From contig ML996706.1 of the NCBI GenBank assembly GCA_010356995.1, positions 321,509 to 385,508 of the forward strand: 64,000 bases of DNA, in the 5' to 3' direction. The notes beneath the pieces were generated by a model. It was given only the letters and a program-made list of their open reading frames with translations, was not told the DNA's origin and ran no database searches. The translations under genes and the position numbers were made by a program. Every line of letters begins with the position of its first letter. Positions within the stretch are counted from its first letter, which is position 1. Shown piece after piece: positions 47,364-54,758 of the stretch. Source of the DNA: Trichodelitschia bisporula. Taxonomy: Eukaryota > Ascomycota > Dothideomycetes > Phaeotrichales > Phaeotrichaceae.

Positions 47364-48475
47364 ATGGACTCTCAACCAAGAACACTTCGTAGTGCTTTTC
47401 TCGAAGCTGAATCCCGCCGGAGAGATCTTGAGTCGTCGTGGGAAAGTTCCAGCGCCACCTTCCAGGACAACCTTGCCGCTGCTATCGCCCTATATGAGGA
47501 AAGCTTGAAGGCAGCGCGCGAAGTTGCGCTCTTCAGTCCGAATGAGACGCTGGAAGATGTCAACTCTGGCGACCTCCAGTACATGCTCATCAACTACCAT
47601 CTGGCGGAGCTAAGCACAAAAATCACCGGTGGAGATCGCAAGGCGCATATCCTTCACGCGAGACGCTACTATGAAGCTTTCCTCAAGCTCTTAGACTCTT
47701 ATGATATGCTTTCCAAGTCTGATTCGAAGCTATATGGGCAATACACGGAGGCGCCAGACATGTTTTCCACAGCATCCAGAACAGACGCGGCAGCCCGCAG
47801 AGAGACAAAAATTGCTCGTTTCAAGGAAGAAAAAGCGCTGAAGAGCAAGCTCGAAGTACGCCACTTCAAGCCTGTAAGGTCATACTAACCGCACCGCAGC
47901 ATCTCCGCCAGAACCCCCAAGCCCTCGAAAACGACGAAGACGCCCTCCGCGACCTGCACCTCACCAGCATCTCCCTCTCCATCTACCAGACCTTCCAATC
48001 CCTCGAGTCCATCGCCCAAGAGCTGCACATACTAGCCATGGCGCCGCCCTCACAACCAGAAGGCGCCTCGCCTCGCGGATCAGATACTCGGGAGCGCGAA
48101 AGTGCAGACAAGAGCGGGTATTCGGACCGGTTAGACTCGCGCGTCGGGGGTCTGGCGGGCTTGCAAGGCCCCATCCTGAGCAAAGATGGGAGACCGCTTC
48201 GGCCGTTTACCATACTAGATAATCGGACAAGGTTTCAGCAGGGGGTGTTCCGGCCGGATCACAGTCTTCCGACGATGACTATTGATGAGTACCTTGAGGA
48301 GGAGAAGAAGCGGGGTGGGATAATAGAGGGTGGCGGCGAACAATCGGGTGTCAGGCCGGAGCCTGATGAGGATAACATGACGAAGGCGGATGAAGAGACT
48401 TTGAAGGCGCGGGAGTGGGATGAGTTTACGGAGGCGAATCCCAAGGGCTCGGGGAATACGTTCAATAGGGGCTGA
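47364..48475 (+). CDS. TAP42-like PP2A-associated protein
   Basis: Exons 47364-47855 and 47900-48475 (44 bp intron) encode 355 residues, close to yeast Tap42 (366). The N-terminal helical repeat region carries LRSAFLEAESRRRDLESSW, LQYMLINYHLAEL and ARRYYEAFLKLLDSYDML. RRETKIARFKEEKALKSKLE joins HLRQNPQAL across the intron and contains the conserved Arg/Lys-rich PP2A-binding patch. The C-terminus has RPFTILDNRTRFQQGVFRP, LPTMTIDEYLEEE and REWDEFTEANPKGSGNTFNRG, all family hallmarks. It binds PP2A-like catalytic subunits downstream of TOR. The ATG at 47364 begins the conserved part. Confidence 0.95.
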
Positions 48476-49113: not shown

Positions 49114-52100
49114 TTACGGCGCCATGACAAGCGCCAGCAGGGCCATGCGAGTGTAGAGTCCATAGCGCATCTGCTTTGTGTTAGACCGGTCCAAAAAAAA
49201 GGGATAATGTTCCTTGGAACTCACCTGGCGGAAGTACGCCGCGCGCGGATCAAAATCCAGCTCCTCGGCGATCTCCTGGTTGCGCGGCAGAGGATGCATG
49301 ACGATCATGTTTGTTTTAGCCGTCTTGAGCACAGCATTGTCGACGACAAACGCCGCCTTAACACGCTCATAGAGGTCTTGGTCCTCGAATCGCTCCTTCT
49401 GCACCCGCGTCACGTACAGCACGTCCGAATGAGCGACGATATCCTCCGTGAGCGTGGCCTCTTCCCTACCGAGCTGTCCGCGGCGCTTCAGAGCGTCGCG
49501 CACCTTGGCGGGCAACTCCAGCCCAGCCGGCGCCACGAGCTGAATGGTCACGTCGTAATGCTTGAGCAGCTCGCAGAGGGAGTGGACGGTGCGGCCGTAG
49601 CGCAGGTCGCCGACGAAGGTGATGGTCAGCCCGTTGACTGTGCCCAGTTCCTCGCGGATGGTGAAAAGATCGAGGAAGGCCTGGGTTGGGTGCTCGCGCG
49701 CGCCGTTGCCCGCGTTGATGATGGGGACATTGGAGAACTTGGCCGCGATGGCAGCGGAGGACTCGTCCGGGTGCCGCAACACGATAGCATCGCCGTAGCA
49801 GCCCAGGGTACGGATGGTATCGGCCAGTGATTCGCCCTTGGCAGTCGAGGAGTAGGCTTCGTTGATCTGCACGACCTCACCGCCGAGACGCTTCATGGCG
49901 GCGTCGAAGGATGACGAGGTCCGCGTCGAAGGCTCGAAAAACATGGTGCACAGCACACGGCCCTTGAGGATGTCCAGGCAGCCTTGACGCTGCACTCCAA
50001 GGCGCATTTCTTGGGCGACCGTGAAGAGATCGTGAAGATCGGCGCGAGAGAACTGTGACACCGACAAGATATGCTTACCCCGGAACGGAGAGCGAGCGAG
50101 AAGCTCCGGGAGCTGAACAGCTTTGGGAGCCTGCAGCTGGCGGTAGAGCGGAGCGGTCGTTGACTCGGATTGGGGAGCGGGCACGAAAGTCTGATAGTCG
50201 ACCTTTGTGACCTCCAGATCGTATTGACGCGCGAGAGCCTCGATCAAGATCTTTGCATTCTTCACGTTGGTGACCAAAGGCGTTTGGTAGTCCACGGCCA
50301 TGCGGCGCGTCAGGTAGCCGCGGCTCATGTAGGTGGCAGGGCGGCGGAAGCGATTGCTCGAGGGCAGATTGATGTACAGATCGATCATGTTGTTGGCGAG
50401 ATGTTGTGTCAGCGAGTACTCGGGCTTCTGGGCGTCGGAGCCCTCAGGCAGGACTTCGAGAAACTTGACCGGGATGCCATGCTCCTGAATGTAATCTGCC
50501 GTGCCCGCCGTAGCAAACAGGCTGTAGCCCATCTTGTGGAGCCGCTCGATAGATGGAAGCATCTCCAGCTTATCCTTGAAAGAACCAATGGACAGCAGGA
50601 TGTTCTTCTTGGGCAGCTTGAATCCGGTCGAGAGCAAAGCCTTGATGTACGCTTCGTACTTCGTACGGCCAAAGCAAGCGACCTCGCCCGTAGATGCCAT
50701 TTCTACGCCAAGCACGGGATCGGCACCAGACAGACGAGAAAAGGAGAACTGCGGCACCTTGACACCAACATAATCGGGCGGAATGGTCACCGGGGGGTAT
50801 TCAACGAGCGGTAAACCTGCCATGGCCTTGGTGGCCATTTCGATCAAGTCCACTCCCATCACCTTAGACACGAAGGGGAAGGAGCGGGATGCGCGGACGT
50901 TACACTCGATAACCTTGATCTCGTTGTCCTTGGCGATAAACTGGATGTTGAAGGGCCCAGTGACGTTGAGGGCATTACCGATCTTGCGCGTCGCATCTTC
51001 GATCCGACGGATGGTCTCCGGGTCTAGATCCTGAGGAGGCAGAATCAAGGTGGCATCCCCAGAGTGAACGCCTGCGTTTTCAACGTGCTCGGAGATAAAA
51101 TGGCCAATCATGGTGCCGTTGCGCGCAACAGCATCCATCTCGATCTCTTTAGCGTTCTCAATATACTTGGTGATGACAACTGGATGCTCGCGGGAAACAT
51201 CAGCAGCTTGCTTCAGGTACGCGGCCAAGTCATCCTTCGAATAAACGGTGTTCATGGCAGCGCCAGAGAGGACATAAGACGGCCGGACCAGCACAGGATA
51301 CGAAACCTTGTCGCAGAATTCGAGTGCTTCTTCGAGGCTGGTCAACTCCTTCCAAGCCGGCTGGTCGACCGAGATGCGATCCAGCATACGCGAAAACTTG
51401 TATCGGTTCTCGGCGGTGTCGATCATCTCCGGGGATGTGCCCAGAATGCGGACATTGAGGCGATACAGCGGGAGCGCAATGTTGTTGGGCGTTTGACCAC
51501 CCATGGAGAGGATAACGCCACTTGAGTTCTCCATTTGATAGATGTCAAGGATGGACTCCAGGTTGATATTCTCAAAGTACAGACGATCAGCTTCGTCGTA
51601 ATCTGTGCTGACAGTCTCCGGGTTGTAATTGACCATGACGGTTTTGAATCCGTGTTCACGGAGAGTGCGGATGGCCCGCACAGAGCACCAGTCAAACTCG
51701 ACAGATGAGCCGATGCGATACACGCCAGATCCCAAGACCATGACACCGTGATCGTCGAAAGTTATATCGCTCTCCCGACCATTGTAAGTGAGATACAAAT
51801 AATTCGTCACGGCGGGGAATTCAGCAGCCACAGTATCGATACGCTTCACGATAGGTGTGATGAAGACGTCAAGCCGGGCGCGGCGCACCTCAAGTTCCGT
51901 CGAGCTCCAGAACTTAGCAAGCTGGCGGTCGGAGAAGCCGAGCTTCTTAGCCTCCACAAATTGCGGCCGGGGAACAGTGCGTGGGCTCCACTGGCTGATG
52001 ACCTTAGAGAAGTCGCTCAGCTTCTTAAGGCGGCTCAAAAACCACTTGTCGATCTTGGTCATCTCCCAGATCTTGTTGACCGAATAACCAGCGTGCATGG

Positions 52101-54758
52101 CATTTGCGATCGCAAACAAGCGCTGGTCAGAGGGAGTCTGAAGCTCCTGGTCAATGGACATAAGGGCACTCGTTTCGTTGAAGCCCAAGTTAGAAGGATC
52201 AACACCCCGGATGGCCTTCTGAATGGCCTCCTCAAAGGTGCGACCAATGCTCATGACTTCTCCAACACTCTTCATCGAGGAACCCAGGGCCGTGGAGACG
52301 CGAGTGAATTTTTTGAGGTCCCAGCGGGGAATCTTCACCACGACGTAGTCAAGAGAAGGTTCGAAGCACGCACAGGTCGATTTTGTGACGGAGTTCGTGA
52401 TCTCGTTCAAGGGAATTCCGAGACCAAGCTTAGCCGCAACGAAAGCAAGAGGGTAACCAGTAGCCTTAGACGCCAAAGCGGATGAGCGAGACAGACGAGC
52501 ATTGACCTCGATGATACAATACTCCTTTGAAAACGGATTCAAGGCGTACTGGATGTTGCATTCGCCGACAACCCCAAGGTGCCGAATGACGTTAATAGCC
52601 GTAGTCCGCAGCATATTGTAGTCGTCATCGGAGAGGGTCTGTGACGGCGCAACAACGATGGAATCGCCCGTATGGATGCCCAGGGGATCAAAATTTTCCA
52701 TGTTGCACACCGTGATGCAGTTGTCATGCGCATCACGGACAACCTCATATTCGATCTCCTTCCATCCCTTCATGCTGCGCTCAATGAGCACCTGGGGGCT
52801 GGCAGCAAAGGCCTTGTTGCAAAGCTCGATCAGCTCCTCCTTGTTATCGGCAAAACCGCTCCCGAGGCCACCAAGGGCAAAGGCAGCGCGGACAATTAGT
52901 GGATAGCCAATCTTCTCGGAAGCATCGAGCGCCTCCTCGAGCGTCGTCGCGGAAGCCGACTTAGCACACTTCTCGCCGATCGACTCCATGCTGCGGGCGA
53001 ACAGCTCACGATCTTCGGTGGTAATGATCGTATCAATAGGAGTGCCGAGTACCTTGACGCCGAGCGCCTCCAACTCATCCTTGAGCTGAATGCCAACCTG
53101 GAGCGCCGTTTGGCCACCAAATGTAACGTAGATGGCATCGGGCTTCTCGTAGGTGATGACCTTGCGGACAAACTCGGCATTTACCGGAAGGAAGTATACC
53201 TTGTCGGCAAGCCCTTTGGATGTCTGAATTGTGGCGATGTTCGGGTTGATGAGAATGGTGTAGATACCCTCCTCCTTCAGGGCCTTGATAGCCTGGCTGC
53301 CCGAGTAATCGAATTCACCAGCCTGTCCAATGCTGAGACCACCGCTGCCCAGAACCAGTGCCTTCTTCACAGAGACGCGCGGATGCAGCTTCAGGTTCTC
53401 TTCAGCCTTGCCACCGGGGAAGATAACGGGCTCAGTAAGCGCCGCTGGTGACTCAATGCACTTCTGAATGGCGTCAATGAAGATGTCGAAGAGAAACTCG
53501 GTATCTTCCGGACCCGGTGCGTGTTCTGGGTGGAACTGGACGCTGAAGTACGGCCGGCCGATGTGATGTATGCCTTCATTGGTGCCGTCATTAGCGTTTA
53601 CGAACAGCTCCTCCCAACCGGGAAGGAGAGACTCGGTCTCCACAGCGAAACCATGATTCTGCGACGTGATGTAACAGCGCCCTGAAATGCGGTTGGTGCA
53701 AGGAATGTTGTGGCCGCGGTTGCCAAACTTCATCTTCGTTGTCCGCGCACCAGAAGCGCGCGCCAACAGCTGATGACCCAAGCAGATACCAAAGATGGGA
53801 GTTTTGGCCTTGTCTAAAGCGTCCTTGATATGGCTCACAGTGGTTTCGAGCATCGCAGGATCGCCCGGCCCGTTTGAAATGAACAGGCCATCATACTCCT
53901 CACCCAAGAGCTGGGTGAAGTCATAGTCCCACGGCACGACCAGCACCTCGACGCCGCGCTTTACTAGGCAGCGAAGCTGGTTGTACTTGAGGCCGACATC
54001 AACGCAAATCACGCGCACGGCTCGACCAGACGGGTGCTTGAGAGCGGTCGCCGGCTCTGGCGAGTAGGACTTGGGAACTTTTATGGATACTGCAAGCTGT
54101 CAGATATAGATCTCCGAGAGATTTGCGGGAAGGTTTAGCCACCTTCTGCCACAAGGTTCTTCAAATTGGGATTGACCCAGGGAAGAGTCTCAAAGTCGTC
54201 TTTCCAGCTGTGTACACCGTTCTGAGTGCCGTTTTGCACAGGGGTCGTAGAGCGAGTAATGACGGCAGAGAGATCGGTGGTGGAAGAGATATCAGGAGAA
54301 CTAGGAAGAAGCAGACGCCCAAGCATGCTGCCCTCATCGCGGATCCGCTTCGTCAATGCCCTAGTATCCACGCCATATATGGCCGGGACGCCCTGCTCTT
54401 TCAGCCACGTACCTAGCGACGACGAAGCCAGATAGTGCGAGTACTCTTCACCGGCGTATGTAGCCACCACCAGGCCAGCAACATGGATCTCATTGGACTC
54501 GAAGTGTGCGGGGAGATCTTTCAACAGTTCGTCCCTGGTCTCTCTCGAAGGCACGCCATAATTGCCAATGAGCGGGAAAGTAATGACGAGGATTTGGCCG
54601 CGGTAGGAGGGATCAGTCAGAGACTCCGGATATCCCACCATTCCCGTCTGAAAGACGAGCTCACCGGAGACGCTCTTGTTGGCACCAAAGCTGGTACCGT
54701 AGCAATGGAAACCATCCTCAAGTTCGAGGGCCATCTTGAGTATGTCGGTAACTGCCAT
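49114..54758 (-). CDS. Pyrimidine multifunctional protein: GATase-CPSase-ATCase, no DHOase-like domain
   Basis: Exons 54758-54143, 54089-49225 and 49170-49114 (introns 53 and 54 bp) encode 1845 residues. Glutaminase: [20 protein letters not shown] and the cysteine in FGICLGHQ (about residue 307). CPSase: [19 protein letters not shown] starts the first half, and [16 protein letters not shown] marks the second. An MGS-like regulatory domain has [18 protein letters not shown]. ATCase: [34 protein letters not shown] and [11 protein letters not shown]. The protein makes carbamoyl phosphate and carbamoyl aspartate, the first two steps of UMP synthesis. Fungal URA2/pyrABCN proteins are about 2,200 residues and keep a defective DHOase-like domain of roughly 330 residues before ATCase; here DYQTFVPAP runs almost straight into [14 protein letters not shown] after a linker of about 35 residues. 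The last intron is stop-free and a multiple of three. Confidence 0.93.

Follow-up and report, generated by a model that had tools for sequence, protein, structure and literature searches.

In Trichodelitschia bisporula the pyrABCN/URA2-type CPSase-ATCase, the very large protein with which pyrimidine synthesis begins, has neither the inactive dihydroorotase (DHOase)-like domain that many other fungi retain in the middle of URA2/pyrABCN nor the greater part of the DHOase-ATCase linker, and the same domain has been lost elsewhere in the Pezizomycotina. Because other lineages lost it independently, the loss across many lineages is a stronger finding than the local loss in T. bisporula.

The gene lies on the minus strand (54758-49114) of the window, by which we mean the whole 64,000-nucleotide stretch of DNA that was analysed from T. 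bisporula, a member of the Dothideomycetes (Phaeotrichales). Its spliced product of 1845 residues is identical over 1845 aa to a deposited T. bisporula protein ('carbamoyl-phosphate synth'; P0001), in agreement with the length given by an earlier sequence-only reading of this DNA. A stop-free open frame (54099-49114, minus strand) spans GATase, CPSase, MGS and ATCase. The layout is as follows, with relatives that keep the DHOase-like domain called keepers:

54143..54758, minus strand: exon 1 of pyrABCN, the start of the CPSase small chain (residues 1-205; splice model, translation, PF00988 listed for P0001)
54090..54142, minus strand: intron 1, GT...AG, 53 bases (splice model)
49225..54089, minus strand: exon 2, with the remaining GATase, CPSase, MGS, the linker and the greater part of ATCase (frame open through the junction; Pfam; splice model)
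50269..50565, minus strand: MGS-like (regulatory) domain of CPSase, Pfam extent (PF02142, E 6e-19)
50086..50214, minus strand: MGS-ATCase linker, 43 residues (anchors in the spliced protein; keepers have ~440 residues there, the DHOase-like domain plus linker)
49225..50085, minus strand: ATCase, exon 2 part, from FRGKHILS to intron 2, continuing in exon 3 (PF02729, PF00185)
49171..49224, minus strand: intron 2, 54 bases (splice model)
49114..49170, minus strand: exon 3, final residues and stop (splice model)

Pfam matches in the protein comprise GATase, CPSase L_D1 (twice), L_D2 (twice), L_D3, MGS, OTCace_N and OTCace. The GATase and small-chain part (PF00117, E 8.5e-52) contains GICLGHQ and QFHPE, which we take to mark the region of the GATase catalytic Cys motif. 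Both synthetase halves of CPSase and the oligomerisation domain are present, with CPSase_L_D1 and L_D2 (two stretches each) and L_D3 over the cut-off, as is the MGS-like regulatory domain (PF02142). The ATCase domain is identified by PF02729 and PF00185, carries PSTRT, HPTQ and HPLPR, presumably the ATCase active-site motifs, and matches the Chaetomium ATCase 5nnn at E 3e-120. A TAP42-like gene of two exons (47364-48475, plus strand) lies tail-to-tail with pyrABCN; its divergent neighbour is a Dicer-like gene (43162 to about 46820, minus strand) with a DEAD-type helicase piece and helicase C, Dicer dimerisation, platform and RNase III domains.

The missing piece is the inactive dihydroorotase-like domain of roughly 340 residues (compare the Chaetomium structure 5nnl). 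Residue 1497 of the spliced protein is the last of the MGS anchor and residue 1541 the first of ATCase, and the place between MGS and ATCase where the domain would lie holds 43 residues. DYQT closes with T1506, whose codon ends at window base 50188; FVPAP opens with F1507 at 50187, and ATCase (FRGKHILS...) begins at base 50085, with 34 residues between DYQT and ATCase. The sequence-only reading had described a short junction within one open exon at 50060-50240, with about 35 residues from DYQT to ATCase, and both the position and the distance agree with what we find.

In other respects the protein resembles the fungal URA2/pyrABCN proteins of S. cerevisiae, A. nidulans and C. thermophilum: the order GATase-CPSase-MGS-...-ATCase is the same, dihydroorotase is encoded by a separate gene, and in the relatives compared the shared domains are highly identical. 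The T. bisporula protein has 1845 residues; among the matches listed, complete long forms with a species name have 2230-2322, and the shorter of the named long forms appear to be incomplete. The protein is still a URA2/pyrABCN orthologue by descent, although the usual domain definition fails, as it does for 129 of the 278 relatives collected. Animal CAD has homologous CPSase and ATCase parts in the same domain order as the fungal protein, and differs in carrying an active DHOase where the T. bisporula protein has none; Pfam shows no DHOase in this polypeptide, and a gap of 43 residues is too small for one.

The 278 proteins came from three protein searches (best 120 matches each), two of which were queried with P0101, itself a short form, and with a piece of Caeruleum protein. 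They divide into 129 without the domain, 144 with it and 5 unscored for want of anchors. The sample is non-random, since the queries were near short forms and a length rule in one of the searches favoured these, and its proportions cannot be carried over to fungi as a whole. All queries were from Pezizomycotina. Across the 273 scored relatives the MGS-ATCase gap measures either 26-132 or 341-456 residues, with none between. The comparison with relatives that the earlier reading had called for sets 43 residues in T. bisporula against 341-456 in the keepers (median 439), the 341 case having the domain and a short linker.

The best 120 of 2886 matches to the T. bisporula protein comprise 100 short and 20 long forms. 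Among these 120, all 62 proteins taken as Dothideomycetes by species name are short (the class was looked up for Trichodelitschia, Viridothelium and Acrodontium, is in the name for one and is presumed for the rest; some species are counted twice), and the other named proteins, from Caeruleum, Sarea, Xylona and Aspergillus tetrazonus, are long (4/4). The short forms include Trypetheliales and Mycosphaerellales (orders looked up) and, we assume, Pleosporales. Proteins of about 1560-1660 aa in the same 120 cross the same short junction and are probably unspliced ORFs, since their length implies that exon 1 is missing. In a FastTree phylogeny 97 short forms make up one clade (support 0.965), 18 chosen rows of which received an SH-aLRT of 98 in a 105-row IQ-TREE. 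The first branch of this Dothideomycete-type clade is the short form P0115, perhaps, as a guess, an Arthoniomycete; if so, the loss would predate the class Dothideomycetes. The Dothideomycetes crown has mean ages of 164-174 million years in four scenarios, with credibility limits of 93-252 (Table 3 of PMC3683012), and with the minimum age taken from this crown, the loss would be at least about as old. The evolutionary loss proposed in the sequence-only reading is real, in frame and located at DYQT, and it is not peculiar to the T. bisporula genome. Sampled Dothideomycetes are routinely without the domain, and the view of the loss as a special local feature falls.

Outside the Dothideomycetes, deposited gene models place losses in Helotiales, Lichinomycetes, Pycnora and further lineages. 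The Helotiales concerned are Hymenoscyphus, Phlyctema, Glarea, Drepanopeziza/Marssonina and Sclerotinia borealis. Nine named fungi have no such domain; relative to the T. bisporula protein these are independent losses, whose junctions differ and whose gaps span 27-126 residues, with old linker sequence still present in several:

Hymenoscyphus fraxineus: short form, gap 49
Phlyctema vagabunda: short form, gap 27
Glarea lozoyensis: short form, gap 78
Drepanopeziza brunnea: short form, gap 88
Marssonina coronariae: short form, gap 28
Sclerotinia borealis: short form, gap 115
Pycnora praestabilis: short form, gap 68
Peltula: short form, gap 126
Phylliscum: short form, gap 120

Six further proteins (P0232, P0234, P0237, P0241, P0245 and P0247) are also without the domain, their gaps measuring 59-80 residues; this P0234 group lies near Lecanoromycete-like keepers, with P0113 as its sister.

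A midpoint-rooted FastTree of 248 of the 278 proteins, 30 with missing anchors or a short front part being left out, contains 16 all-lost clades. The IQ-TREE of 105 hand-chosen proteins (44 lost, 61 kept; gap region excluded) needs at least 15 changes, on a tree of the 'quick' kind in which starred forks are less safe and 39 of 102 inner branches have support under 80. Lost and kept forms are sisters in this tree for Phlyctema (lost) and Coleophoma (kept), with support of 100, and for Hymenoscyphus (lost) and P0174 (kept), with support of 98. Seven losses are well supported, namely those of Dothideomycetes, Phlyctema, Hymenoscyphus, Sclerotinia borealis/P0188, P0101/P0179, P0205/P0111 and the P0234 group, where, Dothideomycetes apart, a lost lineage is counted if it shares with a keeper a fork supported at >=95, and 'quick'-tree supports need care. 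For the eight Helotiales rows, a group named after the tree had been seen, a single origin was rejected (p-AU 4.4e-06). A single origin of twelve rows (Lichinomycetes, Pycnora, P0278 and the P0234 group), likewise defined after the tree was seen, was weakly rejected (p-AU 0.032).

Taken as a whole, the explanation that we consider very probable is that the T. bisporula protein is a URA2/pyrABCN orthologue from which the DHOase-like domain was deleted in frame, that it is a working enzyme with two activities and that the domain is dispensable; in this best explanation the loss would be no younger than the ancestor common to the sampled Dothideomycetes. The sequence predicts a CPSase and ATCase enzyme whose ATCase part would trimerise as usual, with CPSase attached to that part through a linker that is short and probably flexible; carbamoyl phosphate may then be transferred by nearness or through CPSase-ATCase contact, and dihydroorotase would be a separate protein. 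The Chaetomium DHOase-like domain forms a crystal dimer that resembles human DHOase, and a structural role was proposed for it within a model of the hexamer as ATCase trimers plus DHOase dimers, mutations in either contact being reported to dissociate CAD hexamers (PMC9863657). The DHOase-like dimer contact, proposed to join two trimers into a hexamer, would be gone from the short forms; if the model holds for fungi, they must be trimers or pair via CPSase. The dead domain looks like a dispensable structural spacer or scaffold, unnecessary for catalysis or for the hand-over of carbamoyl phosphate. Its dispensability for catalysis fits the similar ATCase activity reported for Chaetomium ATCase alone and for a construct that includes the DHOase-like domain (PMC9863657). 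The earlier reading had tied the loss to the question of a scaffold, and that bearing holds: since the domain seems dispensable in many lineages, an obligatory hexamer scaffold becomes harder to uphold. A structure prediction for the short form P0038 (913 residues) from a 20-row alignment had a mean pLDDT of 50 and was discarded.

In fungi that keep it, the domain is probably doing something, because it is fairly well conserved there, at 69% identity in 66 pairwise comparisons among 12 keepers. The same 12 keepers share 82% identity in ATCase, 85% in MGS, 36% in the linker, 86% and 92% in the CPSase halves and 75% in GATase. A possible alternative, which we rate as somewhat doubtful, is that the domain was lost and the hexamer persists, with CPSase dimers or the separate dihydroorotase joining two ATCase trimers. 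The changes in MGS after loss could be adjustment to such new contacts. They were counted in hand-picked triples of lost form, keeper and outgroup, one row per clade for 12 lost lineages, with Dothideomycetes and P0196 left out for lack of a near keeper. Unique changes in MGS were more numerous in the lost form than in the keeper in 12/12 triples (115 vs 46), and 14 keeper-only triples had no MGS excess (63 vs 84); with alternative keepers and outgroups the mean MGS excess was still found in 12/12 lineages. The lost form also led in 9/12 triples for ATCase (245 vs 143) and in 9/12 for CPSase-B (234 vs 161), in 6 for GATase with the reverse in 2 (143 vs 110), and in 4 for CPSase-A with the reverse in 6 (109 vs 104). 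Relative to CPSase-B, however, the excess in MGS is modest, with an odds ratio of 1.56 (nominal p 0.03), there is no shift in ATCase (p 0.73) or in MGS and ATCase together (p 0.24), and relaxed constraint would give the same MGS pattern. Faster MGS change after loss would follow from relaxed constraint and from adjustment alike, with lineage effects only partly controlled, and counts as a lead at most. In the lost lineages, a screen of conserved positions for recurrent replacements gave 8 positions with >=3 hits and no clear surface, the top position being MGS 1486 with five hits; we base no conclusion on these raw counts. Returning to dispensability, we give about an even chance to the wider account in which the domain was dropped at least 7, perhaps 15, times in Pezizomycotina, assembly does without the DHOase-like dimer and MGS adjusts after each loss.

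An assembly collapse or gene-model error that conceals a domain truly in the genome could in principle preserve an open frame, and it is very unlikely, because the same kind of junction occurs in related fungi: a short junction bearing sequence changes of its own occurs in 97 sequences that group as one clade, and several of these are probably unspliced ORFs. To look for the displaced segment that the sequence-only reading had suggested seeking, we used a 340-residue piece of the protein of Caeruleum heppii, a keeper. This piece aligns with the 'Inactive dihydroorotase-like domain' of 5nnl over nearly its whole length (E 9e-142) and with the human CAD DHOase domain (about 1e-56), and in the 25.65 Mb T. 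bisporula genome it matches nothing at E<=10. The MGS piece of that Caeruleum protein, used as a control, did find the window (85% identity, E 2.6e-58), a lenient test in that MGS is better conserved than the DHOase-like domain. Pseudomonas-type ATCase, a helpful contrast on the question of a scaffold, also pairs with a dead DHOase relative, a separate inactive chain (pDHO) reported to be necessary for ATCase activity (PMC7053772); no pDHO-like separate dead chain was found in the T. bisporula genome.

For the separate dihydroorotase, the homodimer-type model TIGR00856 matches contig C2 (E 3e-76), and we count this as the gene, its score of 259 bits being under the curated cut-off of 293; the match holds one TGA, taken for an intron, and a short second piece also matched. 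By eye, a tandem repeat of roughly 115 bases lies near base 1500 of C2, near the contig end and 3' of the dihydroorotase gene, and is possibly subtelomeric. TIGR00857 finds a 539-aa frame on C5 in two pieces (E 2.8e-36 and 9.7e-9), taken for another, putative amidohydrolase, and further weak places on C19 and C1, none of its matches being over the cut-off. The only other transcarbamylase match in the genome, on C1, is presumably ornithine transcarbamylase.

The junctions themselves, aligned with near keepers, vary between losses in residual length and sequence, as expected of separate deletions. Sclerotinia borealis retains nearly the whole old linker (GSPAMGTRPDSSH...RSRFLDGA...LYPQPTISPSLQ), Drepanopeziza, Glarea and P0190 retain its second half or more, and Phlyctema and Marssonina almost none. 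SHRPVPPGL in Hymenoscyphus and LTLPGLIN in P0247 resemble the first residues of the lost domain and look like remains of its start; in Peltula, P0278 and most Dothideomycetes the gap alignment is too loose to show scars, and FVPAPG of many Dothideomycetes could, as a guess, be a remnant of AFVPG just inside the domain. The picture is one in which separate deletions would have excised the globular domain, with the linker worn later. Parsimony on an unrooted tree would accommodate equally well an ancestral short form that gained the domain repeatedly at one place, a history we hold highly improbable given these apparent remains of a domain start and the homology of the domain to animal CAD DHOase, which occupies the same place in CAD. 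Least credible is a recent accident private to the species or genus, in view of the uniformly short Dothideomycete proteins across several orders. Private loss, a displaced copy and assembly collapse were rejected on the relatives' junctions, the genome search with its control and the clade of 97.

A search of mainly open-access literature gave no report of this domain loss, which is weak evidence that none exists. The domain is stated to be present in fungi in the introductions of PMC9863657 and PMC4581275, and in S. cerevisiae and N. crassa in PMC6245113. Fungal ATCase is described as 'usually' joined via the pseudo-DHOase (PMC4581275), a wording that leaves room for exceptions, of which the passage concerned names none. 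The general statement that fungal CAD-like proteins contain the domain is now qualified. Natural pairs of lost and kept forms, such as Phlyctema/Coleophoma and Sclerotinia borealis/Monilinia, lend themselves to questions of assembly, channelling and feedback control, and the natural losses may already test whether the domain is needed.
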